A stretch of DNA of 64,000 nucleotides from Mitsuaria chitosanitabida ATCC BAA-476 = NBRC 102408 (lineage in GTDB: Bacteria; Pseudomonadota; Gammaproteobacteria; Burkholderiales; Burkholderiaceae_C), in assembly GCF_001598255.1 (NCBI RefSeq), contig NZ_BCYP01000005.1, forward strand, positions 1-64,000, read 5' to 3'. The notes beneath the pieces were generated by a model, which saw nothing but the letters and a program-made list of their open reading frames with translations, searched no databases and was not told where the DNA came from. Shown here one piece after another: positions 46,123-61,354 of this stretch (the stretch's first letter is position 1; every line of letters starts with the position of its first letter). Made by a program: the position numbers and the translations under genes.

Positions 46123-46268
46123 GTGTACTCCCTGTGCTCCGAGGTCTTGCCGACGGGGACGAGACCGCCGGGGCGGGCGATTGTGCGTGCGCGGCGTCAC
46201 GGCGCCGCTACAGCGTTTCCCTAGAATCGCCGCCCATGTCTCCAGACCATACCAAGGACGGCGTGTCG

Positions 46269-47195
46269 ATGCCGTCGCGCCGACGCTGGCTCGGTGCCGC
46301 CGCGGCGTTCTCCCTGACGGCGCTGAGCGCCTGTTCCACGCTGCCCACCAAGGCGCCGGACGTCGTCCAGACGCCGTCGCCCGAGCTCCCCACCCCCGTC
46401 ACGCCCAAGCCCGTGCCCAAGCCGCCGCGCATCGGACTGGCGCTGGGCGGCGGCGCGGCGCGCGGCTTCGCCCACATCGGCGTGATCCAGGTGCTGGAGG
46501 AGAACGGCATCAAGGTCGACCTGGTCTGCGGCACGTCGGCCGGCAGCCTGGTGGGCGCGCTCTACGCGGCCGGCCGCAACGGCAAGGAGCTGCAGGCGGT
46601 GGCCGAGTCCATGGACGAGGGCGCCATCACCGACTGGACCTTCCCCATGCGCGGCCTGATCCGCGGCGAGGCCCTGGCCCGCTACGTCCGGCAGATGACG
46701 GGCGGCCGCGGCCTGGAGCAGTTGCCGCTGCCGCTGGGCATCGTGGCGACGGACCTGGGCGACGGCTCGCCCATCCTGTTCCGGCAGGGCGACGTGGGCA
46801 CCGCGGTGCGTGCGTCCAGCGCGGTGCCGGCGGTGTTCCAGCCAGTCAAGATCGGCACGCGCGAGTACGTGGACGGCGGCCTGGTCGCGCCGGTGCCGGT
46901 GCGCTTCGCGCGGCAGATGGGCGCGGAGCTGGTCATCGCCGTCGACATCGGCGAGCCGCCGGATCCCAAGATCCCCGGCGATGCGATGCGCATGCTGATG
47001 CAGACCTTCTCCATCATGGGCAAGTCCATCAACCAGTTCGAGCTGCGCGAGGCGGACGTGGTGCTGCGGCCCAAGCTCGACGGCTTCAGCGGCGCGGACT
47101 TCACCACGCGACGTCGCGCGATCACGCTGGGCCGCGAGGTGGCCACGGCGATGCTGCCGGAGATCCGCCGCAAGATCGCGGCGAAGACGCGCTGA
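46269..47195 (+). CDS. Patatin-like phospholipase, lipoprotein (RssA-like)
   Basis: The 308-aa lipase has the patatin dyad: Gly-rich oxyanion motif LALGGGAARGFAHIG, nucleophile GTSAG and the Asp in DGGLV. A signal with SRRRWLG and lipobox LSAC (Cys22) suggests an exported, possibly Tat-routed lipoprotein. A Pro-rich spacer (about 30-60) separates it from the catalytic domain. I chose ATG 46269, which has AAGGA 10 bp upstream; an in-frame ATG at 46236 without such a site is the alternative. Confidence 0.87.
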   Translation: MPSRRRWLGAAAAFSLTALSACSTLPTKAPDVVQTPSPELPTPVTPKPVPKPPRIGLALGGGAARGFAHIGVIQVLEENGIKVDLVCGTSAGSLVGALYAAGRNGKELQAVAESMDEGAITDWTFPMRGLIRGEALARYVRQMTGGRGLEQLPLPLGIVATDLGDGSPILFRQGDVGTAVRASSAVPAVFQPVKIGTREYVDGGLVAPVPVRFARQMGAELVIAVDIGEPPDPKIPGDAMRMLMQTFSIMGKSINQFELREADVVLRPKLDGFSGADFTTRRRAITLGREVATAMLPEIRRKIAAKTR

Positions 47196-47252
47196 GCGCG
47201 TGGCGCGCGACGGGCCTCACGGCCGCTCGCGCGTCGCTTCCGGTGGCGACGC

Positions 47253-47822
47253 TTACAGGCGCTCGCCGCGGGCGCTGGCCTCGATCAGCTTCTGCAACCG
47301 GACCAGCTGGGTCTCGGCCTTCTTGGCGCTGAGGATGTGCCAGATCGCCGTGCGCTGGTAGCTGTCGGCCTGCGCCTGGAAGAAGGCCCAGGCCTCGGGA
47401 TGGCGCAGGAAGACGACCTCGTGCGCGGGGCTGAGCTCGACGAGCTCCTTGGGCTGCTCGAAGGAGTAGACGCGGGACTTCTCCTCCTGCCGGCGCTCGA
47501 AGGCGGCCTGGCCGGCGGGCTTCATGCGGCCCTCCTGGATCAGCGCCTCGGCGCGGCCGATGTTGACCGCGCTCCAGACGGACACCGCCTTGCGCGGCGT
47601 GAAGCGGATCTTGTAGGTCTTGTCGTCGATGCGCGTGCGCACGCCGTCGATCCAGCCGTGGCACAGGGCCTCGTCGACCGACTCGGGCCAGTCGATGCTG
47701 GGCGTGCCGGTGCCGCGCTTGTGGAAGCCCACCACGACGTCGGTCGCCGTGTCGGCATGCTGGTCCAGCCAGTCGCGGAAATCCGCGGCGGTGGCGAAGA
47801 AGATCGGGGTGCGGGCGGCCAT
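47253..47822 (-). CDS. YdeI/OmpD-associated family protein
   Basis: The 189-aa protein belongs to the YdeI family. Characteristic segments are FFATAADFRDWLDQHAD at the N-terminus, GTPSIDWPESVDEALCHGWIDGVR and RFTPRKAVSVWSAVNIGRAEALI. It is cytoplasmic. Members are linked to stress and peptide resistance, but the biochemical role is unknown. It converges on the patatin gene. Confidence 0.85.
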   Translation of the reverse strand: MAARTPIFFATAADFRDWLDQHADTATDVVVGFHKRGTGTPSIDWPESVDEALCHGWIDGVRTRIDDKTYKIRFTPRKAVSVWSAVNIGRAEALIQEGRMKPAGQAAFERRQEEKSRVYSFEQPKELVELSPAHEVVFLRHPEAWAFFQAQADSYQRTAIWHILSAKKAETQLVRLQKLIEASARGERL

Positions 47823-47920
47823 GGGGCCGGAGTATGCCCGGCGGGCCGAGGCCCGACGGCGGCAGCGGGCGCGCTGTGGCCGCGGGACCGCGCCCCGGCG
47901 AGCGCCGGGGCGGCGGGGGC

Positions 47921-47942
47921 GGGCCGGTCGGGCGACCGGCCC
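47921..47942. other. Hairpin next to the chemoreceptor stop codon
   Basis: GGGCCGGTC and GACCGGCCC pair over 9 bp with a 4-nt loop, with no T-run. It lies 7 bp beyond the chemoreceptor stop and could assist 3'-end formation. Confidence 0.45.
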
Positions 47943-47949
47943 GGTGTCG

Positions 47950-49488
47950 TCAGGCCACCTTGAAGACCGAGACGACCTGCGCCAGGCGCTGGGCCTGCTC
48001 GCTCAGCGAGCTGGCGGCGGCGCTGGATTCCTCGACCAGCGCGGCGTTCTGCTGCGTCATCTGGTCCAGGTTGGCGACGGCCTGGTTGACCTGGTTGATG
48101 CCGTCGCGCTGCTCGGTGGCGGCGGCGGCGATCTCGCCCATGAGGTCGGTCACGCGGCCCACGCCGTTGACGATCTCGTCCATCGCGCGGCCGGCCTCGG
48201 CCACGTCCGAGGAGCCGGCTTCCACCGTCTCCACCGAGCGGGTGATCAGCTGCTTGATCTCCTTGGCCGCCTCGGCGCTGCGCTGCGCCAGCGAGCGCAC
48301 TTCCGACGCCACGACCGCGAAGCCGCGGCCCTGCTCGCCCGCGCGGGCCGCCTCGACGGCCGCGTTCAGCGCCAGGATGTTGGTCTGGAAGGCGATCCCG
48401 TCGATCGTGCCGATGATGTCGGCGATGCGGCTCGAGGATTCGGAGATCTCGCGCATGCGGTTCACCACCTGGCCGACCACGCGGCCACCGCGGGTGGCGG
48501 CCTCGGCGGCGCTGCCTGCCAGCTGGTTGGCCTGGCGGGCGGTGTCGGCGGACTGGCCGACGGCGCCGGTCAGCTGTTCCATGCTGGAGGCGGTCTCCTC
48601 CAGGTTGGAGGCGGTCTGCTCGGTGCGGGACGACAGGTCGGCGTTGCCGACGGCGATCTGCGAGGAGGCGCTGGACACGGACTCGACGCCGTCACGCACT
48701 TGCGAGACGACGGTCTGCAACTGGCCGACCATGCGCAGCAGCGCGGTCTGCAGCTGGGCCACCTCGTCGCGGCCGACGATGGTCAGCGTGCGGGTCAGGT
48801 CGCCGGCGGCCACCGCCTCGGCCAGCGCCACCGAGGCTTCCAGCGGGCGCACGATCTTGCGGGTGATCACGAAGGCCAGGCCCGCGCCGATCACGACCGC
48901 CACCAGCGTCATGCCGGCCACGATCCAGCGGCTGCTGGCGTAGATCTGGTCGCCCAGGTCGTTGGCGGCGTCGGCGCCCTGGGTGTTCAGGTCGACCAGG
49001 TCGTTGAGCGCCTTGCCCACGTTCTCGTAGGCCGACAGGTTCTCGACGGCCAGCATGCGCTTGGCGCCTTCGTCGTCGCCGTCGCGGGCGGCGGCCATCA
49101 TGCGGGCGCTCTTGGCGGCGTACTCGCCCCACAGCGCGCGGGTGTGCTTGAGCTTCTCGCCCTCGGCGGGGGAGGACACCAGCTTCTCGTAGGCGTCCAG
49201 GCGCTTCTCGACGGTCTGGCGCAGCTCGTCGGTCTTGGCCACCTCGGCGGCGCGGTCGGCCTTGTCGGCCAGCAGCAGGCGGTACTCGCGGGTGCGGTAG
49301 CGGGTGACGTCCTGGTTGGCGGCCTGCGCGGCGCGCGCGGACGGCATCCAGTTGTCGGCCATGTCGCTGGCCGTGTCATTGACGCGGCTCAACTGGAAGG
49401 TGGCGATCACGCCCAGCAGGGCGGTGATGACGAGGACGGAACAGAAGGCCAGCGTGAGCTTGGCCCCGACGGACAGGCGGTCGAGCAT
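47950..49488 (-). CDS. Methyl-accepting chemotaxis protein with 4HB sensor domain
   Basis: The 512-aa chemoreceptor has a transmembrane segment (about 10-32) and a periplasmic four-helix-bundle sensor (about 35-190). A second membrane segment (about 192-212) leads to a HAMP domain (VRPLEASVALAEAVAAGDLT) and the cytoplasmic signalling hairpin. The hairpin tip is IIGTIDGIAFQTNILALNAA and EAARAGEQGRGFAVVASEVR. It lacks the C-terminal NWETF tether. The ligand is unknown; no che genes are adjacent. Confidence 0.93.
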   Translation of the reverse strand: MLDRLSVGAKLTLAFCSVLVITALLGVIATFQLSRVNDTASDMADNWMPSARAAQAANQDVTRYRTREYRLLLADKADRAAEVAKTDELRQTVEKRLDAYEKLVSSPAEGEKLKHTRALWGEYAAKSARMMAAARDGDDEGAKRMLAVENLSAYENVGKALNDLVDLNTQGADAANDLGDQIYASSRWIVAGMTLVAVVIGAGLAFVITRKIVRPLEASVALAEAVAAGDLTRTLTIVGRDEVAQLQTALLRMVGQLQTVVSQVRDGVESVSSASSQIAVGNADLSSRTEQTASNLEETASSMEQLTGAVGQSADTARQANQLAGSAAEAATRGGRVVGQVVNRMREISESSSRIADIIGTIDGIAFQTNILALNAAVEAARAGEQGRGFAVVASEVRSLAQRSAEAAKEIKQLITRSVETVEAGSSDVAEAGRAMDEIVNGVGRVTDLMGEIAAAATEQRDGINQVNQAVANLDQMTQQNAALVEESSAAASSLSEQAQRLAQVVSVFKVA

Positions 49489-49680
49489 GACGGACTCTCG
49501 GGAGGTTGTGGACCCAGGGGAGGGCGGGAGTCGACATGCAACCGCACAAGGTCTTGCGGGGCGTCAGAGCGGGCGATGGCCCACGGGCATGCCGTTTGCT
49601 CGAATTGTCGTACTTGTACGGAATGCGGCGAAACCCGCACCGACGAGGGTTCGTGAGTATTTAACGTGGTTACCACTATG

Positions 49681-49704
49681 AGTTAACGTACACAAACGAT
49701 AACT
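49681..49704. promoter_or_regulatory. Operator candidate for the TetR regulator
   Basis: AGTTAACGT (49681-49689) and ACGATAACT (49696-49704) form an inverted repeat with eight of nine pairs, spaced by 6 bp. It lies 9 bp before the TetR start codon in an AT-rich patch. The size and position fit TetR autoregulation. A second small palindrome, CGTAC-TT-GTACG, is at 49609-49620. Confidence 0.55.
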
Positions 49705-49713
49705 TCTAACATC

Positions 49714-50445
49714 ATGAAACAAGTGCGAGACGACGATCTGGACGGCGGCCGGGGGGCGCCGCGACTGCGACGAGGCCCCACGGAGATGGAGGCCCTGAAG
49801 CGGGAGATGTTGGAGCGCGCCCGGCGGATCTACCGGGAAGAGGGCGTCGAGGCCCTGAGCATGCGGCGCCTGGCCCAGGAGCTGGGCATCTCGACGATGG
49901 CCATCTACAGCTACTTCGAGAGCAAGAAGGCGTTGCTGGACGGGCTGTGGATCGAGGTGTTCGAGGGGCTCACCGACGAGCTGCTCGATTCGTCCAAGGG
50001 CCAGCGCGGCCCGCGACGTGTGCTGGAGGCGCATGTCCGCTGCTTCCTGGACTTCTGGGAGCGTCACCCGGAGCAGTTCCGGATGATCTACATGTCGTCG
50101 ACGCAGACGGCCTCGCTGGACGAGATCGGCCAGTCGCAGCTGCCGGTCTACAACCGGCTGCTGGGCCTGGTGCGGGAGCGCTTGGCCGCCTGCGCGCCCA
50201 GCGGCGCCGAGCCCGACGAGCAGCGCATCCGCCTGCTGTGCGACCTGATGTCGGTGCGGCAGATGGGCTATCTGATGATGGTGGTCGGGCTGCCGCGCTA
50301 TCCGGTCCTGGACCGCGAGCTGCTGCGGGAGCGCACCGTCCAGGGCGTGCTGCGCGACGTCACCGAGGAGTACGAGGCGTCGCGTGGGACGCCGGCCGGC
50401 GGCGATCCCGCATCGTCGGCGCCGGGTGCCGCGGTCGGCGGCTAG
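49714..50445 (+). CDS. TetR/AcrR-family transcriptional regulator
   Basis: The 243-aa regulator has an N-terminal DNA-binding domain (about 25-75; ILERARRIYREEGVEALSMRRLAQELGIS-type helices, with TMAIYSYFESKKALLDGLW) and a mostly helical ligand domain similar to the WHG/TetR_C groups. The C-terminal 20 residues are low-complexity. It is divergent from the chemoreceptor gene, which is a possible target besides itself. Confidence 0.88.
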   Translation: MKQVRDDDLDGGRGAPRLRRGPTEMEALKREMLERARRIYREEGVEALSMRRLAQELGISTMAIYSYFESKKALLDGLWIEVFEGLTDELLDSSKGQRGPRRVLEAHVRCFLDFWERHPEQFRMIYMSSTQTASLDEIGQSQLPVYNRLLGLVRERLAACAPSGAEPDEQRIRLLCDLMSVRQMGYLMMVVGLPRYPVLDRELLRERTVQGVLRDVTEEYEASRGTPAGGDPASSAPGAAVGG

Positions 50446-50601
50446 ACGACCCGGAGACCGCGCCGCCCCTCTCGGCGGGCCGGTCGCACACGCTCGGCGC
50501 CCCCGGGCGATTGCCGGAGCACCGCCCTGGTGCCGGTGCCGTCTCCCGGGGCGGACCTCGCGGTGGCGGACCACGCGTCCGATCCAGCGCCTGCCGTCCG
50601 G

Positions 50602-50632
50602 GCAAAAAAAAGCCCAGCGGGACGCTGGGCTT
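50602..50632 (-). terminator. Rho-independent terminator of the phasin gene
   Basis: AAGCCCAGC and GCTGGGCTT pair with a 5-nt loop, and on the minus strand a run of eight T follows. It is about 70 bp past the phasin stop. Confidence 0.9.
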
Positions 50633-50702
50633 GAAGGGCACTTGGGAAGCGGTGCTTCCGTGGGTACCGAGGAGACAACCGGTCAGTGCAACCGTTCGGG
50701 CC

Positions 50703-51257
50703 TCAGGCGGCGCGCTTGGCGGCGCGCGAGGCGGTCTGGGTTGCCTTCACCGCCGTGGTCGTCACGGCGTTGAAGTTGGATTCAGCGATTTCGGAGGCTT
50801 GCTTGGCGGCCTTGTGCAGGCTTTCGTACGCGTTGTTGGCCGCGGCCACCGCCGACTTCACCAGAGCAACAGCATTTTCCGTGCCAGCCGGGGCGTTCTT
50901 GGTCACGTTCTCGACCACGGAGCCCAGCTTGGACTGCGCGTCGGCGACTTGGGCCTCGGCCAGCTTGGTGAACTCGGAGGACGTGGAGGCGGCGATGTCG
51001 TACAGGTGGCGGCTGTAGGCGACGGCCTTCTCGGCGGACGGTTGCAGCAGCGAGGCCTGCAGGGCCAGCAGCTCTTGAGCGTCCTTGACGGCCAGGGCGG
51101 ACTGCGCGGTCTCGGCGGCTTCACCCAGGGCGGTCTTGGCCACTTGCAGGTTCAGTTCGACCAGCTTCTCGACACCTTCGAACGCCTTGCTGGTCAGCCC
51201 GAACAGGGCTTCCAGTTGGCTCTTCTGGGCGGCGATCAGTTGTTCAGCGGTCAGCAT
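50703..51257 (-). CDS. phaP: Phasin (polyhydroxyalkanoate granule protein)
   Basis: The 184-aa alpha-helical, Ala-rich protein coats polyhydroxyalkanoate granules. The family start [21 protein letters not shown], the helix [18 protein letters not shown] and the Ala/Lys-rich tail are typical. There is no signal peptide. A GGAG site lies 8 bp before the start. Two palindromes that fit the PhaR repressor flank its promoter, so its level is probably tied to polymer content. The presence of a phasin implies that the cell stores polyhydroxyalkanoate. Confidence 0.94.
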
Positions 51258-51321
51258 GCGAAATCTCCTTGAGAGTTGAAATCAGCCAGATAGGGCAGGC
51301 TGAGAGCCGGGCTGCGAACTT

Positions 51322-51336
51322 TGTTGCGGTGCAGCA
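51322..51336 (-). promoter_or_regulatory. PhaR-type operator candidate 2, at the phaP transcription start
   Basis: TGTTGC and GCAGCA flank GGT, one mismatch from the upstream TGCTGC-GAT-GCAGCA site. It covers about +2 to +16 relative to the predicted start, a position that would block transcription. Confidence 0.5.
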
Positions 51337-51344
51337 TGGATCGA

Positions 51345-51372
51345 AGTATAGGACTGGCGAATCGGATTGCAA
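51345..51372 (-). promoter_or_regulatory. phaP promoter, sigma70-type
   Basis: On the minus strand, TTGCAA (-35, 51367-51372) and TATACT (-10, 51345-51350) are separated by 16 bp. The predicted start is near 51338, giving a leader of about 80 nt. Confidence 0.65.
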
Positions 51373-51376
51373 GCGG

Positions 51377-51399
51377 TTTTTGCTGCGATGCAGCAAAAA
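51377..51399. promoter_or_regulatory. PhaR-type operator candidate 1
   Basis: Perfect 10-bp arms TTTTTGCTGC and GCAGCAAAAA flank GAT. The core CTGC-N3-GCAG matches the published recognition pattern of the polyhydroxyalkanoate-sensing repressor PhaR of Rhodobacter sphaeroides. It lies 5 bp upstream of the -35 box. Confidence 0.65.
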
Positions 51400-51432
51400 G
51401 CCTGCAAGCCCCTGGGGACGGGGCTTGCAGGC
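51395..51432 (-). terminator. Strong terminator-like hairpin upstream of phaP
   Basis: GCCTGCAAGCCCC and GGGGCTTGCAGGC pair over 13 bp with a 7-nt loop, followed on the minus strand by TTTTT, which is part of the PhaR palindrome. No minus-strand gene lies upstream, so it may shield the phaP promoter from antisense transcription. Confidence 0.55.
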
Positions 51433-51558
51433 CCGCCAGGCGACCTCGCCGGCGGGGCGCGGACGCTGCCCGGGCGCGACGCGCGGCGCCGATCGGGCGG
51501 CGTCCGGAAGACGGCCCTCGCGCGCTGTCGCGACGCGGGGCGCGGTAAGGTCGCGGCC

Positions 51559-52551
51559 ATGCTCGCGTTCCACTACGACCATCTGAGCCTGGCGCTGCCG
51601 CCGGGCCACCGGTTCCCGCAGTCCAAGTACCAGATGCTGCGTGAACGCGTCGAGGGGCGTCCCGGCCTGTTGCGCCTGCGCCTGGCCGAGCCGGCGGATC
51701 CCGGCGCGCTGGCCCTCGTCCACACGCCGGACTACATCGACGCGGTGCTGCACGGCACCCTGAGCGCCGCCGCCCAGCGCGAGATCGGCTTCCCCTGGGC
51801 GCCCAGCCTGCCGCGGCGCTCGCTGTGCTCGGTCGGCGCGACGGTCGCCGCGGCCCGGGCCGCGCTGGAGGAGGGCGTGGCCGCCTCGCTCGCGGGCGGC
51901 ACGCACCACGCCTATGCGGACAAGGGCAGCGGCTTCTGCGTCTTCAACGACGTGGCCGTCGCGGCGCGGCTGATGCAGGCCCAGTGGCACCGCCGGCATC
52001 CCGACCGGCCGGGCCTGCGCATCGTCGTCATCGACCTGGACGTGCACCAGGGTAACGGCACGGCGCGCATCTTCCAGGGCGACGACAGCGTGTTCACGTT
52101 CTCCATCCACGGGGAGAAGAACTTCCCCTTCCGCAAGGAGTCGGGCGATCTCGACGTCGGTCTGCCGGACGCGTGCGGCGACGGGGTGTATCTCGATGCG
52201 CTGGCGACCTCGCTGGCGGAGGTCTGGCGTCGTCTGGCGGACCGGCCGGCGCAACTGGCCTTCTACCTGGCCGGCGCCGATCCGCACGAGGGCGACCGGC
52301 TCGGCCGCCTGAAGCTGAGCGCCGACGCGCTGCTGCGGCGCGACCGCCTCGTGCTGGAGGCGCTGTTCGAGCGCCGCATCCCGGTGGCGATCAGCATGGC
52401 CGGCGGCTATGGCGAGGACCTGAGCGTGACCGTCGATGTCCAGGAGCGCACGCTCGAGGCCGCCGCCCAGTCCTGGCAGCGCTGGCAGGCGCGGGGCGGG
52501 GACGACGATGCCGTCGCCCATGCCGGTTGCGGCGAGCCCCTCGACCCGTAG
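51559..52551 (+). CDS. Histone-deacetylase-family hydrolase, class IV-like
   Basis: The 330-aa zinc amidohydrolase has the deacetylase signatures: LPRRSLCSVGATVAAARAAL, the His pair in GGTHHAY, FCVFNDVAVAARLM, metal ligands DLDVHQGNGTA and GADPHEGDRLGRLKLS, and MAGGYG. The order and the GGTHHA form resemble the HDAC11-like class of bacterial enzymes. Substrates may be acetylated proteins, polyamines or, for some relatives, acetoin-linked targets; nothing here decides. ATG 51559 was chosen where the family begins. A run of thioesterase remnant sequence follows directly. Confidence 0.88.
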   Translation: MLAFHYDHLSLALPPGHRFPQSKYQMLRERVEGRPGLLRLRLAEPADPGALALVHTPDYIDAVLHGTLSAAAQREIGFPWAPSLPRRSLCSVGATVAAARAALEEGVAASLAGGTHHAYADKGSGFCVFNDVAVAARLMQAQWHRRHPDRPGLRIVVIDLDVHQGNGTARIFQGDDSVFTFSIHGEKNFPFRKESGDLDVGLPDACGDGVYLDALATSLAEVWRRLADRPAQLAFYLAGADPHEGDRLGRLKLSADALLRRDRLVLEALFERRIPVAISMAGGYGEDLSVTVDVQERTLEAAAQSWQRWQARGGDDDAVAHAGCGEPLDP

Positions 52552-52579
52552 CCCGCGCGACAGCCAGGCCGCGTCCGCG

Positions 52580-52682
52580 ATGGAAGAGCGCCGCCCACCC
52601 CGAGACCCGTCCCGCCCCCGAGCCCCGCGAGGCCTTCGCCCGTTTCGTCCCCGTGCCCACGCGCTGGATGGACAAGCGTTGA
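52580..52682 (+). pseudogene. Displaced 5' fragment of the thioesterase gene
   Basis: In frame, this fragment reads PEPREAFARFVPVPTRWMD and then KR and a stop created by the insertion. It is what remains of the original start of the thioesterase gene now at 55467. The nearest ATG (52580) is one base out of frame with this reading, so the fragment has either decayed or used another start. It ends in the 17-bp repeat. Confidence 0.7.
52659..52675. repeat. 17-bp direct repeat, left copy (attL-like)
   Basis: ACGCGCTGGATGGACAA is identical to 55539-55555. It encodes the conserved Thr-Arg-Trp-Met-Asp of the thioesterase in the same reading frame at both ends. Confidence 0.85.
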
Positions 52683-52969
52683 TTTTTTATAGAACAACAG
52701 CTTGTGAGGTGCTTGGACAAGTCCCTTGGTCAAAATCCTGGTGCCGCAGGGCAACTTGTCCATGCTCTGGGGTCACTATTAGGACCCGAAAGAGGGTGGG
52801 CAAGTTGTCCTCTCCGCTCGTTGTTGGGGCTGAGGATGAGGGACGCGAAAGCTAGGGTTTACGTTAGCCCTGCCTGTCGCCACAAACTCATTGCACTCGC
52901 TTACATATAGAGGTCACAACTTGGCAATGCCCGCACTTGACGGGGACATGGTTGAGGGAGCCTCTAAAA
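52683..52969. other. Left non-coding end of the element
   Basis: This 287-bp stretch has no credible ORF. It contains three TGGACA-type motifs in both orientations and an AT-rich segment near 52885-52915 that may hold the promoter of the nuclease-like gene. Confidence 0.6.
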
Positions 52970-55276
52970 GTGATTCATCGCATCAATCGCCTTCGGCAAT
53001 TCGGCATCTTTGCCGACTACAACGGTTCAGGTATTCAACAATTTGGCAAGTTCAACCTCATCTATGGTTGGAACGGCACAGGCAAATCAACCCTGTCGCA
53101 TGTGTTCTCTTGCCTTGAAAGCCGCTCTCTGATTCCCCGCTTCTTGGGGGGGCAATTCAACATCACACTTGAAGACGGCTCTTCAATCACTGAAGTCAAC
53201 TTGGCGGCTTCTCAGTTGAATATTCACGTGTTCAATCAAAGCTTCATCCGTGACAACATTGATTGGGATAAGTCGGTCAAGAGCATCCTCCTGATTGCGA
53301 AGGAGAAGATTGAAGACCTACAAGCCTTGGAGAAGATGAAGCTTGAGCTTGGAGGAAAGCGAACTGCTCACAGCACCAAGCTGAACGACATAAAGATCAA
53401 GACTGATGCACAGGATAAATTCCTGACCGGTGTCGCGAAGAAGATGAAGATTGGTCTTCAGGCGATTGACACCAGCGATAGCTACTACCTCAACTATGAC
53501 CGCCGCAAGCTGTCAAAGTTCATTGAGGGGAACGAACAAGCGGTCGTAAACAAAGATTCGGTGCTTAGCGGAGAGAAGGTCATAGAGTTGACCAATGCAG
53601 CCAAGCCCGACCATCTGCCCACCGTCACTTTTCTTGCGACGGTCATTCCCGAAGACTACTTCAAGAAGGCGGCTGGTCGTATCCGTGACCTGATTGCCAC
53701 GACCGCCGTTAATCAGGCGATTGAGCGACTCACTGAAAATCCTGACATCCGTGATTGGGTGCAAAAAGGCTTGGAGGTCCATGGGCATCATCATTCGGAA
53801 AAGTGCGAGTTTTGCGGCGAGCCGTTCACGAAGGCTCGTGCCGAAGCCTTGGCGGCTCATTTCAGCAAGGAATTTACTGCCTTCCAAACGAGATTGAAAG
53901 ATGCTGCGACTTGGATGCAATCCCAAGGTGCACCCGCGAATGAACTGCCCGTAGCGACAAGCTTCTATAAGGAGTTTGCAGCCGACGCCACCAAGCTGGA
54001 AGGCGAGTACAAAGCCGCGGCCGATAAAATCGACCAGCAGATTGAAGGATGGCGGGAAGCCCTCCAAGCCAAAATCACGGACCCAGCAAAAACCGACATT
54101 CAGATTGCGGATGTGGTTGAGGGTGATGTGATGGCTTTCAATGCCGTGTTGTCCTCCCTTGTGGTTCTCGTGCAGAAGCATAACAACAAAACCGACAACT
54201 TCAGTGCGGAGACCTCAAAAGCCAAGAAGGCACTTGAGCTTCATTTCGCAGCGGCAGAAATCCAAGAGTTTGACTATGCGGGCAATGAGAAGCAGTGCAA
54301 GGAGTTGCAGGCTGCTGCCGACACTGACAAGAAGGCGATTGATGAACTGCAAATGAAGGTCAACGACCTTGAGGCTCAGCTATCCAATGAAACGGTCGGA
54401 GCCAAGGAATTCAATGATGTCCTGCATCGCTTCATCGGTCGTTCGGAACTTTGCCTGAGCTTCAATCAGCAGAAGAAGGGCTACGAGATCATTCGCAATG
54501 GGGTGGGCGAGCATGACGGAAATCTGAGCGAAGGCGAGAAGACAGCGATTGCCTTCGTCTACTTCATCACCAAGCTTAGGGAGGGCGGAAACAATATTGC
54601 AGACACGATTGTTGTTGTGGACGACCCTGTTTCAAGCTTTGACTCCAATCACCTTTTTCATGCCTATTCGTTCCTGAAAACTCAGTGCATTGATTCCAAG
54701 CAACTGTTTGTCCTTACTCACAACTTCACCTATTTCAAGTTGGTGAGGGATTGGTTTACGACGACGAACAAAAATAGGGCAAAGAAGAATAAATCACCCG
54801 TCGCATTCTTCTACAGACTGGATGCCCCGCCAGGCTCTCCCCGTCATTCGCTGCTGGTTGATGCGGACGAGTCGCTTAAGAATTATGGCTCCGAGTATCA
54901 CTACATCTTCAAGAAGCTCTATGCCTACAAGGCCAAAACGACCTTGGACCGCGATGAGGCATTCTTAACCGCGAACCTCGCCAGAAAGCTGCTGGAGTCA
55001 TTCTTTACCTTCAAGTTCCCCAAGGGGCGGAACGATGTGAGTGCTCTAATGGATGCTGGACTAACGGGCTGCACCGTTACCACGGCGGAACTCAAGGAGA
55101 AGATCTACCGGTTCATCAACAAATATTCTCACAGTGATGTGATTGAAATCACCGAAGAGTCAGCGGAGAACCTTGCGGGGGAGAGTCATAGCGTTGTGGG
55201 CAACATCTTCCAATGGATTGAAGAGGTGGACAAGAAGCACTTTGACGAGATGGTAGAAGTCGCTGAAGCCGTCTGA
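52970..55276 (+). CDS. AAA_13 ATPase with zinc hook and ACNase-like triad, candidate RloC-type anticodon nuclease
   Basis: The 768-aa protein has an ABC-type ATPase split by a long coiled coil. Walker A GWNGTGKST is at residues 33-41, a CxxC hook (CEFC, Cys279-Cys282) sits in the middle, the signature LSEGEK is at 519-524 and Walker B VVVDDPVSSFD has Asp551-Asp552. The C-terminal domain carries Arg672-x3-Glu676 and His721 (RKLLE...NKYSH), the arrangement of the Arg/Glu/His catalytic triad of the anticodon nucleases PrrC and RloC. The size and zinc hook fit RloC, a stress- and DNA-damage-responsive tRNA nuclease, better than the shorter PrrC. I chose GTG 52970 (VIHRINRLRQFGIF), 9 bp after GAGGGAG; a TTG at 52937 is the longer alternative. 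Codon use differs from the host. No restriction-modification genes are adjacent. Confidence 0.78.
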   Translation: MIHRINRLRQFGIFADYNGSGIQQFGKFNLIYGWNGTGKSTLSHVFSCLESRSLIPRFLGGQFNITLEDGSSITEVNLAASQLNIHVFNQSFIRDNIDWDKSVKSILLIAKEKIEDLQALEKMKLELGGKRTAHSTKLNDIKIKTDAQDKFLTGVAKKMKIGLQAIDTSDSYYLNYDRRKLSKFIEGNEQAVVNKDSVLSGEKVIELTNAAKPDHLPTVTFLATVIPEDYFKKAAGRIRDLIATTAVNQAIERLTENPDIRDWVQKGLEVHGHHHSEKCEFCGEPFTKARAEALAAHFSKEFTAFQTRLKDAATWMQSQGAPANELPVATSFYKEFAADATKLEGEYKAAADKIDQQIEGWREALQAKITDPAKTDIQIADVVEGDVMAFNAVLSSLVVLVQKHNNKTDNFSAETSKAKKALELHFAAAEIQEFDYAGNEKQCKELQAAADTDKKAIDELQMKVNDLEAQLSNETVGAKEFNDVLHRFIGRSELCLSFNQQKKGYEIIRNGVGEHDGNLSEGEKTAIAFVYFITKLREGGNNIADTIVVVDDPVSSFDSNHLFHAYSFLKTQCIDSKQLFVLTHNFTYFKLVRDWFTTTNKNRAKKNKSPVAFFYRLDAPPGSPRHSLLVDADESLKNYGSEYHYIFKKLYAYKAKTTLDRDEAFLTANLARKLLESFFTFKFPKGRNDVSALMDAGLTGCTVTTAELKEKIYRFINKYSHSDVIEITEESAENLAGESHSVVGNIFQWIEEVDKKHFDEMVEVAEAV

Positions 55277-55466
55277 AAACTAGGCCACAAACAAAGCCAC
55301 CACAAGGGCGAGGTCTAGAGCGGGGAATTGAACAGGGCTTGCGGGGCATGGTCTTGGACGAGTCTTGGCTTGGACAGTCCGCCGCTTGGGCAGGTTCTTG
55401 GACAGACTCTCAAGTGTCCAAATCGGCAATCAAACAGAATCAAAAACTTAGCTCACGGATAAGTCC
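55277..55466. other. Right non-coding end of the element with repeated TTGGACA motifs
   Basis: Five TTGGACA-like motifs lie within about 70 bp (55353-55421), in direct and inverted orientation. They resemble arm-type recombinase sites. The following AT-rich 40 bp is the likely new promoter region of the thioesterase. Confidence 0.6.
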
Positions 55467-55919
55467 ATGACACAGGAAAATGAAAATCGCCCTCAGCCGT
55501 TGAATCGTAGTGACTTTCCCATTTTTGTGGCCCTGCAAACGCGCTGGATGGACAACGACATCTACGGCCACCTGAACAACGTCATCTACTACAGCCTCTT
55601 CGACACGGCGGTGAACCGCTGGCTGATCGAGCAGGGCGCGCTGGACATCCACGCCGGCGAGGTCATCGGCCTGGTGGTCGAGACCCATTGCAACTTCTTC
55701 GCCTCGCTGGCCTTCCCGCAGCAGGTGGAGGCCGGGATCCGCGTGGCGCGACGCGGGCGTTCCAGCGTCCGCTACGAGATCGGTCTGTTCGCCGAGGGCG
55801 AGCCGCTGTGCGCGGCGCTCGGCCACTTCGTCCATGTCTATGTCGAGCGCGACTCGCATCGTCCGGTCGCGCAACTGCCCGAGGCCTATCTGAAGGCGCT
55901 CGCGCCGCTGGAGCGCTGA
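55467..55919 (+). CDS. Acyl-CoA thioesterase, YbgC/4HBT family, with replaced N-terminus
   Basis: The 150-aa hotdog-fold thioesterase has the family core TRWMDNDIYGHLNNVIYYSLFD, where the Asp is the usual catalytic residue. HCNFFASLAFPQQVEAG and YVERDSHRPVAQLP segments follow. The first 24 residues (MTQENENRPQPLNRSDFPIF and four more) come from the AT-rich inserted element, while the rest has host composition. The displaced original 5' part is at 52580-52682. The gene is intact as it stands, but its promoter and leader have been exchanged. Confidence 0.85.
   Translation: MTQENENRPQPLNRSDFPIFVALQTRWMDNDIYGHLNNVIYYSLFDTAVNRWLIEQGALDIHAGEVIGLVVETHCNFFASLAFPQQVEAGIRVARRGRSSVRYEIGLFAEGEPLCAALGHFVHVYVERDSHRPVAQLPEAYLKALAPLER
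55539..55555. repeat. 17-bp direct repeat, right copy (attR-like)
   Basis: Identical to 52659-52675. GC content rises sharply immediately after it. Confidence 0.85.
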
Positions 55920-56126
55920 GCGGGAGGGCGCGCGTCGCCCCGACGCCCTGTCACGCTGTCGCCGCGGAGAGGGACAGGGCTTGCACCGGGGCGCAGCGGC
56001 GGCGTGACGCGCCGGGCGATCCGCGTCCGTGGCGAGCGCCCGTTGTGGATCCCCACAGCGCCGGGCGGTCGTGACTGCCTACAGTCGGCGATTCCTCAGC
56101 ATTGCCCTGACCCGAAGGAGAACGAG

Positions 56127-57110
56127 ATGAGCAAACCGCGCGTCCTGGTGGCCCGCAAGACCTTCGACGACGTCGTCGACCGGCTGCGGTCCCATTTCGA
56201 GGTCGAGGCCAACGGCAGCGACGACGGCTGGTCGCAGGACGAGCTCATCCGGCGCCTGCAGGGCAAGACCGGCGTCTACATCGCCGGCGGCGACAAGATC
56301 GACGCCAGGCTGCTCGACGCCTGTCCCGAGCTGAAGATCGTCAGCACCATGGCCGTGGGCTACAACAACATCGACGTGGCGGCCTGCACCGCGCGCGGCG
56401 TGATCGTGACCAACGCGCCCGACGTGCTGACCGAGACGACCGCCGACTTCGGTTTCGCGCTGATGATGGCCACCGCGCGCCGCATCACCGAGAGCGAACA
56501 CTTCCTGCGCCGCGGCGAGTGGAAGCAATGGGCGGTGACCATGTTCGCCGGGGCGGACATCCATGGCGCGACGCTGGGCGTGCTGGGCATGGGCCGCATC
56601 GGCGCGGCCATCGCCAGGCGCGGCCACCTGGGCTTCGGCATGCCGGTGCTGTATCACAACCGCTCGCGGCTGCCCGCCGATCAGGAAGCGCCGCTGGGCG
56701 CGCAATGGGTGGAGAAGGACGAGCTGCTGCGCCGCGCCGATCACCTGATCATCGTCGTGCCCTACAGCGCGTCCTCGCACCACCTGATCGGCCAGCGCGA
56801 GCTGCGGCTGATGAAGAAGACCGCGACGCTGACCAACATCGCGCGCGGGGGCGTCGTCGACGACGCGGCCCTCGCGGTCGAGCTCCAGGCCGGCACGATC
56901 GCCGCCGCGGGCCTGGACGTCTTCGAGGGCGAGCCCACGGTCCATCCGGCGCTGCTCGACTGCGAGAACGTGGTGCTCACCCCCCACATCGCCAGCGCGA
57001 CCATCGCCACGCGCCGCGCGATGAGCAACCTCGCCGTCGACAACCTGATCGCCGCGCTCACCGGTGGCGTGCCGCCCACGGCGCTGAATCCCGAGGTGCT
57101 CAAGCGCTGA
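56127..57110 (+). CDS. D-2-hydroxyacid dehydrogenase (glyoxylate/gluconate reductase type)
   Basis: The 327-aa NAD(P)H-dependent enzyme has the Rossmann motif LGVLGMGRIGAAIARRG near residue 150. Its catalytic residues sit in the usual contexts: Arg in NIARGGVVDD, Glu in LDVFEGEP and His in LTPHIASAT. The order and length match the glyoxylate/hydroxypyruvate or 2-ketogluconate reductases. The exact substrate is not determined by sequence. AAGGAG lies 8 bp before the start. rmuC begins 13 bp after its stop, so they may be co-transcribed. Confidence 0.9.
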   Translation: MSKPRVLVARKTFDDVVDRLRSHFEVEANGSDDGWSQDELIRRLQGKTGVYIAGGDKIDARLLDACPELKIVSTMAVGYNNIDVAACTARGVIVTNAPDVLTETTADFGFALMMATARRITESEHFLRRGEWKQWAVTMFAGADIHGATLGVLGMGRIGAAIARRGHLGFGMPVLYHNRSRLPADQEAPLGAQWVEKDELLRRADHLIIVVPYSASSHHLIGQRELRLMKKTATLTNIARGGVVDDAALAVELQAGTIAAAGLDVFEGEPTVHPALLDCENVVLTPHIASATIATRRAMSNLAVDNLIAALTGGVPPTALNPEVLKR

Positions 57111-57123
57111 GAGAATCGGGCGC

Positions 57124-58614
57124 ATGAATCTGCCCTTCTGGATGGTCGCGCTCATCGCGGGCGCGGCCCTGCTGTCCCTCCTCCTTCTCATCGTCATCGC
57201 GGTCGGCGTCAGGTTGCTGCGACGACAGTCCGGCGGCGACCCCGCGGCGGCGCTGGCCCCGCTGATGCAGCAGTCGGGGGAACGCCTCGAGCGCCTGGAG
57301 CGCGCGCTGCGCGACGAACTGGGCCGCGTGAACACCGGCCTGCGCGAGGAGGTCGGCCGCGGGAACGCCGGCCTGCGCCAGGAGACGCTGACCACGCTGA
57401 CGCAGTTCCAGCAGGCGCTGATGGCGCAGGGCGGCGACACGGCGCGCTCGCAGAACGAGCAGATCGACGCCTTCCGCGTGCAGCTGGCGCAGCTGCAGCA
57501 GGCGCTGGCCCAGCAGGCCGCGTCGGCCCGCGAGGCGCAGGACGCCGCGGCCTCGCGCACGACCACCGTGCTGACCGAGCAGCTCCAGACCCTGGCCCAG
57601 CGCAACGAGGCCGGACTGGCCGAGACCCGCCGGACGGTCGAGGCGCGGCTGCAATCGATCCAGCAGGACAACGAGAAGAAGCTCGAGCAGATGCGGGCCA
57701 CCGTCGACGAGAAGCTGCACGCCACGCTGGAGCAGCGGCTGGGCGAGAGCTTCAAGCAGGTGGCCGAGCGGTTGGAGCAGGTCTACCGCGGCCTGGGCGA
57801 GATGCAGACCCTGGCGCGCGACGTGGGCTCGCTGAACCGTGTGCTGACCAACGTGAAGACGCGCGGCATCTTCGGCGAGGTGCAGCTCGCGGGGCTGCTC
57901 GAACAGGTCTTCACGCCGGAGCAGTACGCCTCCAACGTCGAGACGCTGCCGGGCAGCGGCGCGCGCGTGGAGTTCGCGCTCAAGCTGCCGGGTCAGCGCG
58001 ACGACGGCAAGCCGCTCTGGCTGCCCATCGACGCCAAGTTCCCGCGCGAGGACTACGAGCGTCTGCTCGAGGCGCAGGAGCGTGCTGACGCGCCGGCCGC
58101 CGAGCTGGCCGGCCGCGCGATCGAGACGCGGCTGCGGCTCGAGGCCAAGACCATCCGCGAGAAATACCTGGGCCCGCCGCACACGACGGACTTCGCGCTG
58201 CTGTTCCTGCCCACCGAGGGCCTGTACGCCGAGGCGCTGCGCCGCCCCGGCCTGAGCGAGGCGCTGCAGCGCGAGCACAAGGTGATGCTGGTCGGCCCGA
58301 CCACGTTGCTGGCCACGCTGTCCAGCCTGCAGATGGGCTTCCGCACGCTGGCGCTGGAGAAGCGTTCGGCGGAGGTGTGGGACATCCTGGGCGCGGTGAA
58401 GACCGAGTTCGGCAAGTTTGGCGACGTGCTGGCCAAGACGAAGAAGAAGTTGGACGAGGCCAGCAACAACATCGAGATGGCCGAGCGCCGGACCCGAGTC
58501 ATGACACGACAGCTGAAGGCCGTCGAGGCTTTGCCCGAGGACCAGATCACGCGGGTGCTGCAGCTCGGCGCCGAGTCCGACGCGGACACCGATGAGGAAG
58601 GCGTCGCCGGATGA
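57124..58614 (+). CDS. rmuC: DNA recombination protein RmuC
   Basis: The 496-aa protein has an N-terminal membrane helix (about 5-31), a long coiled-coil region (about 45-220, rich in Gln/Leu/Glu) and the RmuC nuclease-like domain. The domain segments are NVKTRGIFGEVQLAGLLEQVF, VEFALKLPG, LPIDAKFPREDYERL and LVGPTTLLATLSSLQMGF. RmuC limits inversions at short repeats and is thought to be a nuclease. The stop overlaps the next start by 4 bp. Confidence 0.92.
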   Translation: MNLPFWMVALIAGAALLSLLLLIVIAVGVRLLRRQSGGDPAAALAPLMQQSGERLERLERALRDELGRVNTGLREEVGRGNAGLRQETLTTLTQFQQALMAQGGDTARSQNEQIDAFRVQLAQLQQALAQQAASAREAQDAAASRTTTVLTEQLQTLAQRNEAGLAETRRTVEARLQSIQQDNEKKLEQMRATVDEKLHATLEQRLGESFKQVAERLEQVYRGLGEMQTLARDVGSLNRVLTNVKTRGIFGEVQLAGLLEQVFTPEQYASNVETLPGSGARVEFALKLPGQRDDGKPLWLPIDAKFPREDYERLLEAQERADAPAAELAGRAIETRLRLEAKTIREKYLGPPHTTDFALLFLPTEGLYAEALRRPGLSEALQREHKVMLVGPTTLLATLSSLQMGFRTLALEKRSAEVWDILGAVKTEFGKFGDVLAKTKKKLDEASNNIEMAERRTRVMTRQLKAVEALPEDQITRVLQLGAESDADTDEEGVAG

Positions 58615-59801
58615 GCGATCCCGCCGCGGGCTCGACGACGCAGGACGCGGGCACCGGCTTCGCGTCGGTGATCGCGTCGCTGGTGGCGGTCCACGCCTGC
58701 ATGGCGACGACGCGGGTGGCGGCGACGCTGTGGGTCCTGCATCAGGGCTACGGCGGCTGGATCGTCGGCGTGCTGCTCAGCCTGTTCGCGGTCGCGCCGC
58801 TGGGGCTGTCGCTCTGGGCGGGTCGGCTCGCCGATCGCTTCGGTTTCCACCGCCCGGTGGGCATCGGCATCGCGATGGCCTTCTGCGGCGCGGTGATCGC
58901 CTTGCTGGCGCAGCTCGCCGGGGCGCTCTGGCTGATGGCCGTCGGTTGCCTGCTCTGCGGCGGCGCGGTGGCGGTCGCCGTGGTCGCCATCCAGCGCGAG
59001 GCCGGACTGATGGCCGCCGACGCCTCGCAGCTCAAGCGCGTGTTCAGCTGGGTGGCGCTCGGCCCCGCGCTGTCCAACGCGCTGGCGCCGGTGATCACCG
59101 GCATCGTCATCGACACCGCCGGCTTCAGCGCCGCGCTGGTGCTGTCGACCCTGCTGCCGATCGCGGCGTGGGGCGTCGCGCGGCAGGTGCCGCGTCGGGC
59201 GATCGCGGTGACCGAGTCCAAGAGCAAGCCGCGCCCCGCCTGGGACCTGCTGCGCGATCGCGGTCTGCGCCATCTGCTCATCGTCAACGTCGCGATGTCC
59301 TCCTGCTGGGACGCCCACAGCTTCGTCGTGCCCGTCGTCGGTCACGCGAAGGGGCTCTCGGCCTCCAGCATCGGGCTGGTGCTCGGCAGCTTCGCCACGG
59401 CCGCGACGCTGGTGCGCCTGGCCATCGTCCGCTGGGCCCATCGCATCGACGAGATCCGGGCGCTCAAGGTCGCCATGACCGTCGCGACGGTCGTGCTGCT
59501 GGTCTATGCGTGGTTGCCGGGAACGCTGGGACTGATGCTCGGATCGGCCGTGCTCGGGATCGCGCTGGGGGCGGTCCAGCCCATGGTCCTCGCGACCATG
59601 CACCAGGTCACGCCGCCGGATCGCCATGGACAGGCCCTCGGCCTGCGCATGCTCGCCGCCAACGGCGCGACGGTCGCCATGCCCCTGGGCTTCGGCGCCC
59701 TCGCCACCGCGAGCGTCGCGGCGGCACCGCTGTGGCTCATGGCCTCCATCCTCATCGGGGCCCAGTTCGCGGCGAGACAGATTCCGAGACCGAGACCTTA
59801 A
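58611..59801 (+). CDS. MFS transporter
   Basis: The 396-aa inner-membrane protein has about 12 hydrophobic segments and the MFS loop motif LSLWAGRLADRFGFHRP between helices 2 and 3. The substrate is unknown; drug or metabolite efflux is usual for this type. Its ATG overlaps the rmuC stop (ATGA). A REP-like element begins at the stop codon. Confidence 0.88.
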   Translation: MSDPAAGSTTQDAGTGFASVIASLVAVHACMATTRVAATLWVLHQGYGGWIVGVLLSLFAVAPLGLSLWAGRLADRFGFHRPVGIGIAMAFCGAVIALLAQLAGALWLMAVGCLLCGGAVAVAVVAIQREAGLMAADASQLKRVFSWVALGPALSNALAPVITGIVIDTAGFSAALVLSTLLPIAAWGVARQVPRRAIAVTESKSKPRPAWDLLRDRGLRHLLIVNVAMSSCWDAHSFVVPVVGHAKGLSASSIGLVLGSFATAATLVRLAIVRWAHRIDEIRALKVAMTVATVVLLVYAWLPGTLGLMLGSAVLGIALGAVQPMVLATMHQVTPPDRHGQALGLRMLAANGATVAMPLGFGALATASVAAAPLWLMASILIGAQFAARQIPRPRP

Positions 59802-59956
59802 GACCCTCACCCCAACCCTCTCCCGCAAGCGGGAGAGGGGGCCGGAAGCGCTCGGTCTTTCTCGCTCCCTCTCCCGCAAGTGGGCGAGGGGGCCGGAAGC
59901 GCTCGGTCTTTCTCGCTCCCTCTCCCGCTTGCGGGAGAGGGCGGGGGTGAGGGTCT
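59802..59956. repeat. REP-like element with an internal tandem duplication
   Basis: The outer ends are GACCCTCACCCC and GGGGTGAGGGTC. Inside, a unit of about 52 bp (CTCTCCCGC hairpin followed by GGCCGGAAGCGCTCGGTC) occurs twice, before a third CTCTCCCGC hairpin. It fills the space between the convergent MFS and hypothetical genes. Confidence 0.82.
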
Positions 59957-59973
59957 TTCGAGGCAGACCTCGG

Positions 59974-60939
59974 TCACTCCCCCGCCGCCTGCGCCATCTG
60001 CCGGCGCGCCTCCTTGTGCTTCATCGCGAGGTATTCCTCGAGCGGCTGCTCATGCAACTGCCGCGCATAGCGCTCGGTCGCGGCGAACCAATCCCTCAGC
60101 CGCTTGTCCAAGCGCTGATCCTGCGGCGCCGGCAAGGTATCCAGATACGACTCGATCGCCAGGAAGTACCGCATGGTGTTGCGCTCCGCGATGCCCTGGA
60201 TCCCGCCGACGTAGCGCGGCGCGCCGTCCTCCTCATGGCCGACGATGGTGAACCCCACCTTGCCCCGTCCCGTCGTCGCCAAATAGGCGCTCGTCGCCAC
60301 GCGCGCCGCGAAGTTGTTGGCATACGCATAGCGCAGCCGCACGAAGCTGCGCCGCGCGTCCAGCGGGATCGCCTCCAGCGTCATCCGATAGTCGCTCGTC
60401 CCCATCGGCCCCTTGGCCGCGCTCATCTCCACCAGCAGATAGTCCGGCCGCGAGGCGACGACCTGGAACCGGAAGTCCAGCGCATACGCGTCCTCGATCG
60501 GCTGATCGAACTTGCGCCCCACCGCCATGTGCAGCGTCGAGGGCCGCGCCTCGTCGTCGACCACGCACTTCTTGACGTTGGCCGGCAAGGTGAGCAGTTC
60601 GCACCACGCGTCCGCGTCGCGCAACGCGCCCGCCAGGGCCCCGAAGTCGTGATCGACCACCGCATGCATCTCGCCGGTCGGATGCTGCGTGTCATCCACC
60701 GAGCTCAGCACGATCGGCTTCTGGAAGGGGCTGTGCGCCAGTTGCGGCGCCATCTGCTCGTAGCGCGCCTTCAGGTCGCCCGCCTGCTGCGCGGACACCT
60801 CGGTCGCGATCAGCAGCAGCGCCAGCAGCAAGGCGGCATGCGAGAGCCAGAACACCACGCCGTGATGCGCCGGGCGATGACGCCCGGCCGCGTGATGGCC
60901 GAGATGGAAAACCTGCGGGAGGGGCGGGAAGTGGCGCAT
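59974..60939 (-). CDS. Hypothetical exported or membrane-anchored protein
   Basis: The 321-aa product has a His-rich N-terminus, then a hydrophobic segment (about 28-48, ending EVSAQQ) that is a signal peptide or anchor. The mature region includes PTGEMHAVVDHDFGALAGAL, FRFQVVASRPDYLLVEM and a C-terminal charged helix. The fold could be START/SRPBCC-like, but I cannot support that firmly. A GGAG site lies 6 bp before ATG 60939. Confidence 0.65.
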   Translation of the reverse strand: MRHFPPLPQVFHLGHHAAGRHRPAHHGVVFWLSHAALLLALLLIATEVSAQQAGDLKARYEQMAPQLAHSPFQKPIVLSSVDDTQHPTGEMHAVVDHDFGALAGALRDADAWCELLTLPANVKKCVVDDEARPSTLHMAVGRKFDQPIEDAYALDFRFQVVASRPDYLLVEMSAAKGPMGTSDYRMTLEAIPLDARRSFVRLRYAYANNFAARVATSAYLATTGRGKVGFTIVGHEEDGAPRYVGGIQGIAERNTMRYFLAIESYLDTLPAPQDQRLDKRLRDWFAATERYARQLHEQPLEEYLAMKHKEARRQMAQAAGE

Positions 60940-61354
60940 GACGTTCTCCGGCGAACCTGGCGATCAGCCTAGGCTCGGCGGCGGTGGAGCCGCGTCGGCT
61001 CCAGGCGCGCGGGCGTGTCGGACAAGGCCGCATCCTCGCCACCCCGCCATCGGGTCGTCGAGGGCCCCGTCAAGCCCTGGTCGCCGGCAGGGACTTGCAT
61101 CACCCTCGCGTGATCGAGGTGTGAACGCCTCGCCAAGGTCCGGCCACTGTGCGGCCGCCGAGCCCCGCGCGGTCGGGCGGCCTCGTGGCGAGCGTGCGCG
61201 CTGGCGCCGAGGGCGCCCGTCCGCGATCACATAGAGGGGGGAGTCGCCATCCGTGTTGCCGGGTGGCTTCAGGCGGCCGGCGGCTCTCCGGGAGCGCGCC
61301 GCGCTGCCCCCACAATCGCCGCGACGCCGCGCGTTCGCGGTACAGGAACGATCA
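60940..61354. other. Intergenic region without a supported gene
   Basis: This 415-bp divergent gap lies between the hypothetical exported protein and the M16 peptidase. I see only a small GGAGCC/GGCTCC hairpin near 60990 and no credible ORF. Promoters for both genes should be here. Confidence 0.55.

Follow-up and report, generated by a model that had tools for sequence, protein, structure and literature searches.

A 64,000-nucleotide stretch of Mitsuaria chitosanitabida ATCC BAA-476 = NBRC 102408 (contig NZ_BCYP01000005.1, positions 1 to 64,000; the window) was found to carry a 2,880-bp insertion in the 5' end of a thioesterase gene, flanked by two copies of a 17-bp core repeat and holding a single long open reading frame (ORF). 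We read the insertion, with a probability of about 0.7, as a non-autonomous integrative element flanked by attachment (att) sites, similar to a cis-mobilizable element (CIME), which was inserted site-specifically via a recombinase that it does not itself encode. There is good support for a site-specific, recombinase-less insertion that provided the target gene with a new start; we infer further the class of the recombinase, the use of TTGGACA-type repeats as its sites, and a separate arrival of the two known copies. Both junctions recurred in a second species, and 14 of 16 genomes of the genus had an empty site, which confirmed that the observation is beyond chance.

An insertion at the start of a thioesterase gene

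Repeat analysis of the window identified the direct repeat ACGCGCTGGATGGACAA in two perfect copies (coordinates in Table 1), which lay 2,880 bp apart start-to-start and were embedded in a pair of 42-nt sequences with 76% identity. The G+C content of the insert was about 51% versus about 70% in the surrounding DNA; in 300-bp intervals it was 0.47-0.54 across 52800-55499, 0.68-0.78 in 51300-52499, and 0.67-0.73 in 55800-56699. On the left, the remnant of the thioesterase gene had lost its native ATG start codon from the frame and was closed after the core (TRWMDKR, then stop) by the element-derived TGA at 52680-52682. The sequence-only reading of this DNA had described a perfect repeat around an AT-richer segment, a broken thioesterase fragment on its left and an intact gene on its right beginning with 24 codons of the insert, and all of these were seen again. 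It had also named ordinary homology after a gene duplication as a possible source of the repeat; this was ruled out by the distribution of the gene, of which only the 5' end and core were present at the left and the body only at the right.

The thioesterase orthologue was present in 16/16 genomes of the genus, the window genome (G000) included. The native start (EPRxAFxRFxPVP-TRWMDN, with variations) was retained in the 14 genomes with an empty site, where the upstream 200 bases had a G+C content of 0.67-0.81 versus 0.49 in the window genome and 0.48 in Roseateles chitinivorans HWN-4 (G003, locus L038), the two genomes with an element-type start. In HWN-4, the element measured 3,147 bp from core to core, and the left fragment was a readable 39 residues including the start codon. 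Its junctions were the same as those in the window. The core-to-core insertion with replacement of the first codons, as first proposed, held in both species, and the comparison with relatives that had been advised supplied the empty sites, whose absence would have counted against the proposal.

The 18 element-coded residues before the core were compared with 94 native N-termini (80 from the family and 14 from the genus), giving a best score of 50 and a mean of 28. In 2,000 shuffles, the best and mean scores averaged 0.1 and -15.8, and none attained 50 or 28; the other two reading frames of the stretch, with stops entered as X, reached best scores of 25 and -13. The closest native N-termini belonged to other genera of the family, e.g., RPKPLPRSAFPVFRTIT (L150), and the 14 Roseateles ones scored 17-32. 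Because the element-coded residues resemble native N-termini of other genera, a thioesterase start appears to have been captured in the attachment site. The element-derived start was kept in the same frame in HWN-4, and the hybrid gene is presumably expressed.

Table 1. Features of the insertion and its borders, in window coordinates
Feature	Position	Strand	Evidence
HDAC-family (histone-deacetylase-family) host gene, left neighbour	51559..52551	+	PF00850, E 2.5e-48 on enclosing ORF 51367-52551; G003 counterpart at 0.44 synonymous substitutions per site (dS)
Native thioesterase 5' end, recognisable remnant	52608..52682	+	Ends RPAPEPREAFARFVPVPTRWMDKR followed by stop; resembles native N-termini of 14 genus genomes
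Left 17-bp core copy, attL-like	52659..52675	+	Repeat analysis; junction of core with GCGTTGAT kept in G003
Element left end, 154 bp, three TTGGACA/TTGTCC motifs (52713, 52756, 52805)	52676..52829	+	87.5% identity to G003
Upstream region accompanying cargo gene	52830..52936	+	Similarity starts at 52830 in L037 and at 52853-52854 in L039-L041
Putative RloC-type ABC-ATPase/HEPN anticodon nuclease gene, cargo	52937..55276	+	PF13166, PDC-S06, motifs
Element right end, non-coding, five TTGGACA-type motifs (55354, 55370, 55386, 55398, 55415)	55277..55466	+	82.6% identity to G003 over 55320-55466
24 element codons substituting the thioesterase start (MTQENENRPQPLNRSDFPIFVALQ)	55467..55538	+	Like native N-termini of other genera; same frame in G003
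Right 17-bp core copy, attR-like, codons TRWMDN	55539..55555	+	Repeat analysis
Hybrid thioesterase gene, full-length frame, 4HBT family, 150 aa	55467..55919	+	PF03061, E 3.4e-13; PF13279, E 4e-12

No tRNA gene was present in 45000-64000, no Rfam family matched in 52500-55700, and a promoter and terminator scan of the insert region found nothing exceeding shuffled sequence. At L038 12375-12632, the HWN-4 copy had about 255 bp of extra DNA between the cargo and the right end. An open piece of about 60 residues on its minus strand, which might represent the last part of a gene lost from a larger parent element, obtained only weak family scores (E 0.11 and 0.49), had no convincing match in Pfam or PHROGs, and had no plasmid or phage match.

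The probable RloC-type cargo and its relatives

The long ORF (779 aa when read from TTG) matched AAA_13 (PF13166) with an E of 1.2e-190 and the PADLOC candidate system PDC-S06 over its full length with an E of 5.2e-172, in line with the defence-type gene that had been predicted as the only long frame inside the insert. Translation likely begins at GTG 52970 and not at TTG 52937, because the invariant residues begin at residue 13. In PMC2610378, the RloC signature is given as Arg-X3-Glu-X36-52-His, often with Ser before the His, together with a CXXC zinc hook; the HEPN motif appears as Rx4-6H in PMC3710099. The cargo contained the triad R683-x3-E687-x44-H732 with Ser preceding the His, CEFC at 290-293 (C290, C293), and R725-x6-H732, which agrees with the HEPN motif.

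These residues were then compared among 39 proteins, i.e., the window copy and 38 of 44 cargo loci, the excluded loci being interrupted (L057, L059) or containing stops (L056, L066, L078, L079). The Arg, the His and both Cys of CEFC were each present in 39/39 and the Glu in 38/39. The sole exception was the HWN-4 copy (L038), which has Lys at position 687 and may be inactive. In the homologues at L057 and L059, the matching DNA was interrupted by about 1.4 kb and 1.1 kb, respectively, possibly through insertions within the gene.

The predicted structure was of moderate confidence (mean predicted local distance difference test score 71.7, predicted template-modelling score 0.42), with long helices on either side of the CEFC hook, and its best structural matches were a chain of Lamassu LmuACB, Rad50, and condensin/SMC heads, all with low TM-scores; the model lends no proof of the nuclease part. 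When solved structures were searched, the cargo sequence gave one weak coiled-coil match and the profile gave none. The family matches and motifs suggest that the cargo is probably an anticodon nuclease of RloC type and, by analogy, probably a phage-defence gene.

Cargo relatives occurred in other settings as well. In Pelomonas sp. Root405, a relative with 94% DNA identity from 52830 onward lay in unrelated surroundings, and in L042, L043, L044, and L046, relatives lay between genes resembling those annotated DUF932 and RadC on NZ_CP029142.1. In that plasmid, a PDDEXK nuclease gene and a site-specific integrase gene follow, with the integrase about 2 kb from the cargo relative. The DUF932-type/radC-type flanking appears to be a recurrent slot, found also in L199 (plasmid NZ_CP029142.1). 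Relatives with 60-80% identity were present in 90 plasmid records, and five were found in viral contigs. The thioesterase start looked native in four named cargo-bearing genomes (Root405, two Variovorax, and Paralcaligenes). The left flanks of L039, L040, and L041, within 300 bp upstream of the cargo, looked alike by eye (GCCGTCGCTCAAATCGTCGAA type); lying ahead of the cargo promoter region, they suggest a further, different carrier of the same gene.

Recombinase, arrival and rival explanations

Under the preferred interpretation, the attachment site of a circular form would have consisted of the conserved core (codons TRWMDN) and a captured thioesterase 5' coding segment. Exchange between this core and its counterpart in the host thioesterase gene would have been the work of a site-specific recombinase, most likely a tyrosine recombinase of the type found in phages or integrative and conjugative elements (ICEs), either encoded elsewhere or since lost. 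Integration would have left the detached native 5' end at the left border, and at the right border the gene would have gained the start codon and 24 codons of the element and thereby remained readable. By analogy with studied RloC, the cargo protein would sense infection or DNA damage via its Rad50-like head and cut tRNA.

No recombinase match was obtained for the cargo ORF, as had been predicted, in a family search that covered this long ORF; the same search, again of the long ORF only, gave no transposase match. Elsewhere in the window genome, PF00589 matched two proteins only, XerD (over the cut-off) and an XerC-like protein (316 bits, cut-off 335), located on contigs C12 and C17 with the element on C5. 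Four PF00589 matches were found in HWN-4 (contigs C20, C103, C217, and C219, with the element on C113), including orthologues of both Xer proteins at 83% identity (L108, L110), a 156-aa frame resembling a truncated Xer protein, and an integrase-like frame of 364 aa that scored only weakly against Xer models. PF00239 had no match in either genome.

Each end of the element was found in 2/16 genomes of the genus. No additional true match was found among 399 family genomes (left end), 299 nearest-relative genomes, and 399 order genomes (joined ends in both), which are overlapping sets. A 25-base hit within the genus (G005) was the genome's own empty core; in the family, a 29-base hit (G298) was a chance match, apparently to the end of a transporter gene, and a 24-base hit (G029) was a chance match in coding-looking DNA; and a 34-base hit at order level (G770) apparently lay in an unrelated gene. 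Neither end matched in plasmids, and the whole insert had no match in phages. Viral contigs had no match to the thioesterase protein and none to the right-end pattern; one contig carried 18 bases of the left junction inside a long ORF with no thioesterase-like start, and eight contigs with TRWMDN-type codons were read as a phage structural gene. The core pattern, found in 200 of 399 family genomes among the matches listed, revealed little because one copy is the normal gene.

To the idea that the conserved target codons would give the element a home in many species, the data gave no support. A thioesterase match was present in 180/240 family genomes, from which 80 loci were taken and insertion was judged from N-termini, G+C content, and a second core. 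In the 4.5 kb upstream, a span that a longer element giving a native-looking start would escape, none of the 80 loci showed the element, nor a further core copy with zero or one mismatch. A two-mismatch core lay upstream at nine loci, and a motif loosely resembling that of integrases occurred in one frame or another at 20. The 14-base core within the thioesterase gene was exact in 51 loci and had one mismatch in 14, two in 5, and three in 10. Together with the 2/16 genomes in the genus, use of this thioesterase site looks rare in the sample.

The TTGGACA-type motifs, three at the left end and five at the right in the window, were present as a similar set at matching places in HWN-4; their background was 1.7 per kb over the first 52 kb of the window. 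In 393 bp of end sequence, GGACA occurred six times, counting both strands, versus 0.78 expected (none of 2,000 letter shuffles reached 6), in a post hoc count. The motifs are candidate binding sites of the absent recombinase.

To compare the two copies, a tree was built from the thioesterase and its downstream DNA, a single locus that need not mirror the species tree. HWN-4 was sister to the empty genome G013 with support 100/100, apart from the window genome, and both occupied genomes fell within a group of eight (support 87/88) whose other six members (G002, G005, G006, G007, G011, and G013) were empty. Between the copies, the left end was 87.5% identical (133/152; 0.14 substitutions per site) and the right non-coding end 82.6% (119/144; 0.20 substitutions per site); the cargo dS was 0.24, and six host genes had dS of 0.32-0.62. 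The flanks adjoining the element were 83% identical on either side. The divergence pattern favours separate arrivals after the lineages split, and is not decisive because the element ends may be under constraint.

Several points weigh against the preferred interpretation or against parts of it. No autonomous relative sharing these ends was found in plasmids, viral contigs, or the family, nearest-relative, and order genomes, and the recombinase therefore went unseen. The left and right core copies of HWN-4 differ in their first three bases. The motifs in the ends were counted only once the motif had been noticed. Identity to HWN-4 reached 90.6% over 374 bp (from 56127) of the dehydrogenase gene that lies downstream, which leaves some room for local transfer between the two lineages by homologous recombination. 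The pattern could also stem from one old insertion that was later lost cleanly several times, because constrained ends would look young and the tree covers one locus.

A sharper form of the preferred interpretation, which we regard as possible but somewhat doubtful, is that the recombinase-less element is an active satellite that moves between cells by using the recombinase of a co-resident phage or ICE in trans and is retained for its defence gene. It is consistent with the occurrence of recombinase-less copies in two host lineages that the single-locus tree does not place as sisters, with the preservation of ends and motif sets in both copies, with a divergence of the ends below that of host synonymous sites, and with the presence elsewhere in HWN-4 of the truncated Xer-like frame and the 364-aa integrase-like frame. 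No helper with matching ends was found, however; the PF00589 matches of the window genome are of Xer type only, the element is carried by 2/16 genomes, and the insertion in the window is not fresh, because its left fragment has lost the native start codon. About as tentative is the reading of the element as a two-ended carrier, free of any recombinase, for one defence gene. In it, some 0.4 kb of attachment DNA, part of it a captured gene start, would let an RloC-type gene enter the conserved thioesterase gene without breaking it and borrow any resident phage or ICE recombinase, with cargo relatives riding other carriers.

We consider it unlikely that a larger, integrase-bearing element entered once in a Roseateles ancestor, was pared down to a single cargo gene between its ends, and disappeared cleanly from the other lineages. 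The extra DNA with its minus-strand open piece in HWN-4 and the decayed left fragment in the window would fit such a history, but the ends have diverged to about half the host synonymous level or less, and six empty genomes in the group of eight would imply several precise losses, each calling for a recombinase, a count to be read with the 87/88 support of the fork that joins the group. Very improbable is the entry, by homologous recombination at the TRWMDN codons, of a foreign stretch consisting of the cargo and the first part of another thioesterase: the right end does code for a thioesterase-like N-terminus, but the left core is joined to the same GCGTTGAT in two species, which would not be expected, and no donor arrangement was seen, as 2/44 cargo loci had a thioesterase match, namely L038 itself and L046 at a distance of about 9 kb. 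Transposition with a 17-bp target-site duplication was the least probable of all: each end does carry several repeated motifs, as in transposons with multiple transposase sites such as Tn7, but none of the 9 inverted-repeat pairs listed by the window repeat analysis connects the two ends, the right end fits the entered gene, the position is the same in two species, and a duplication of 17 bp is unusual for transposition.

If the preferred interpretation is true, the insertion shows how small an integrating element can be, with two ends and one defence gene, and it carries a start for the gene it enters, apparently taken from another genus. It would also be a clear-cut model for the movement of defence genes by recombinases encoded elsewhere, because the site is known both empty and occupied, with both junctions, and in a second species too. 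Even if it were the wreck of a larger element, the thioesterase start is documented as an integration site.

Comparison with known systems

The terminal inverted repeats and transposase of a transposon were found neither among the listed repeat pairs nor in the long ORF. Elements that use Xer recombinases (IMEX) come to mind, as Xer-type proteins were the only PF00589 matches of the window genome; the core is one that we take to be unlike dif.

The cargo resembles RloC in its ABC ATPase, CXXC zinc hook, Arg-X3-Glu-X36-52-His and Rx4-6H motifs, and a size within 658-897 aa (PMC2610378, PMC3710099); it differs in that its activity is a predicted one, and in the Lys that the HWN-4 copy has at the Glu position. 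The full-length match to PADLOC PDC-S06 is to a system that is itself only a candidate.

Among integrative elements, the precedent in prfC cited by the sequence-only reading proved apt. According to PMC8409611, dusA receives from the integrative mobilizable element (IME) IMEVchUSA3 both a new promoter and a new N-terminus, 61% identical over 35 residues, and SXT in prfC is described alike; this IME can be mobilized, and int genes are present in its relatives. The likeness lies in the short core used to enter a gene at its 5' end and in the supply of a new, related N-terminus, whereas the present element has no recombinase gene of its own and enters another target gene. Among the literature matches listed, with most subscription papers beyond their scope, none described integration into a thioesterase gene or a similar carrier of defence genes that lacks a recombinase.

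A CIME is described in PMC5704250 as an element that has lost its integration and transfer genes and kept attL and attR. The present element shares the att-like repeats at both ends, the empty sites in relatives, and a searched long ORF that is neither a recombinase nor a transfer gene. It differs in that the searches revealed no related ICE or IME sharing its ends and no tandem arrangement with one, in its size of only 2.9 kb, and in its target at a thioesterase start. With its att-like ends and no such gene in the long ORF, and with the parent element unseen, it is best filed as CIME-like, a known kind of element with an unusual target and an unusual cargo.

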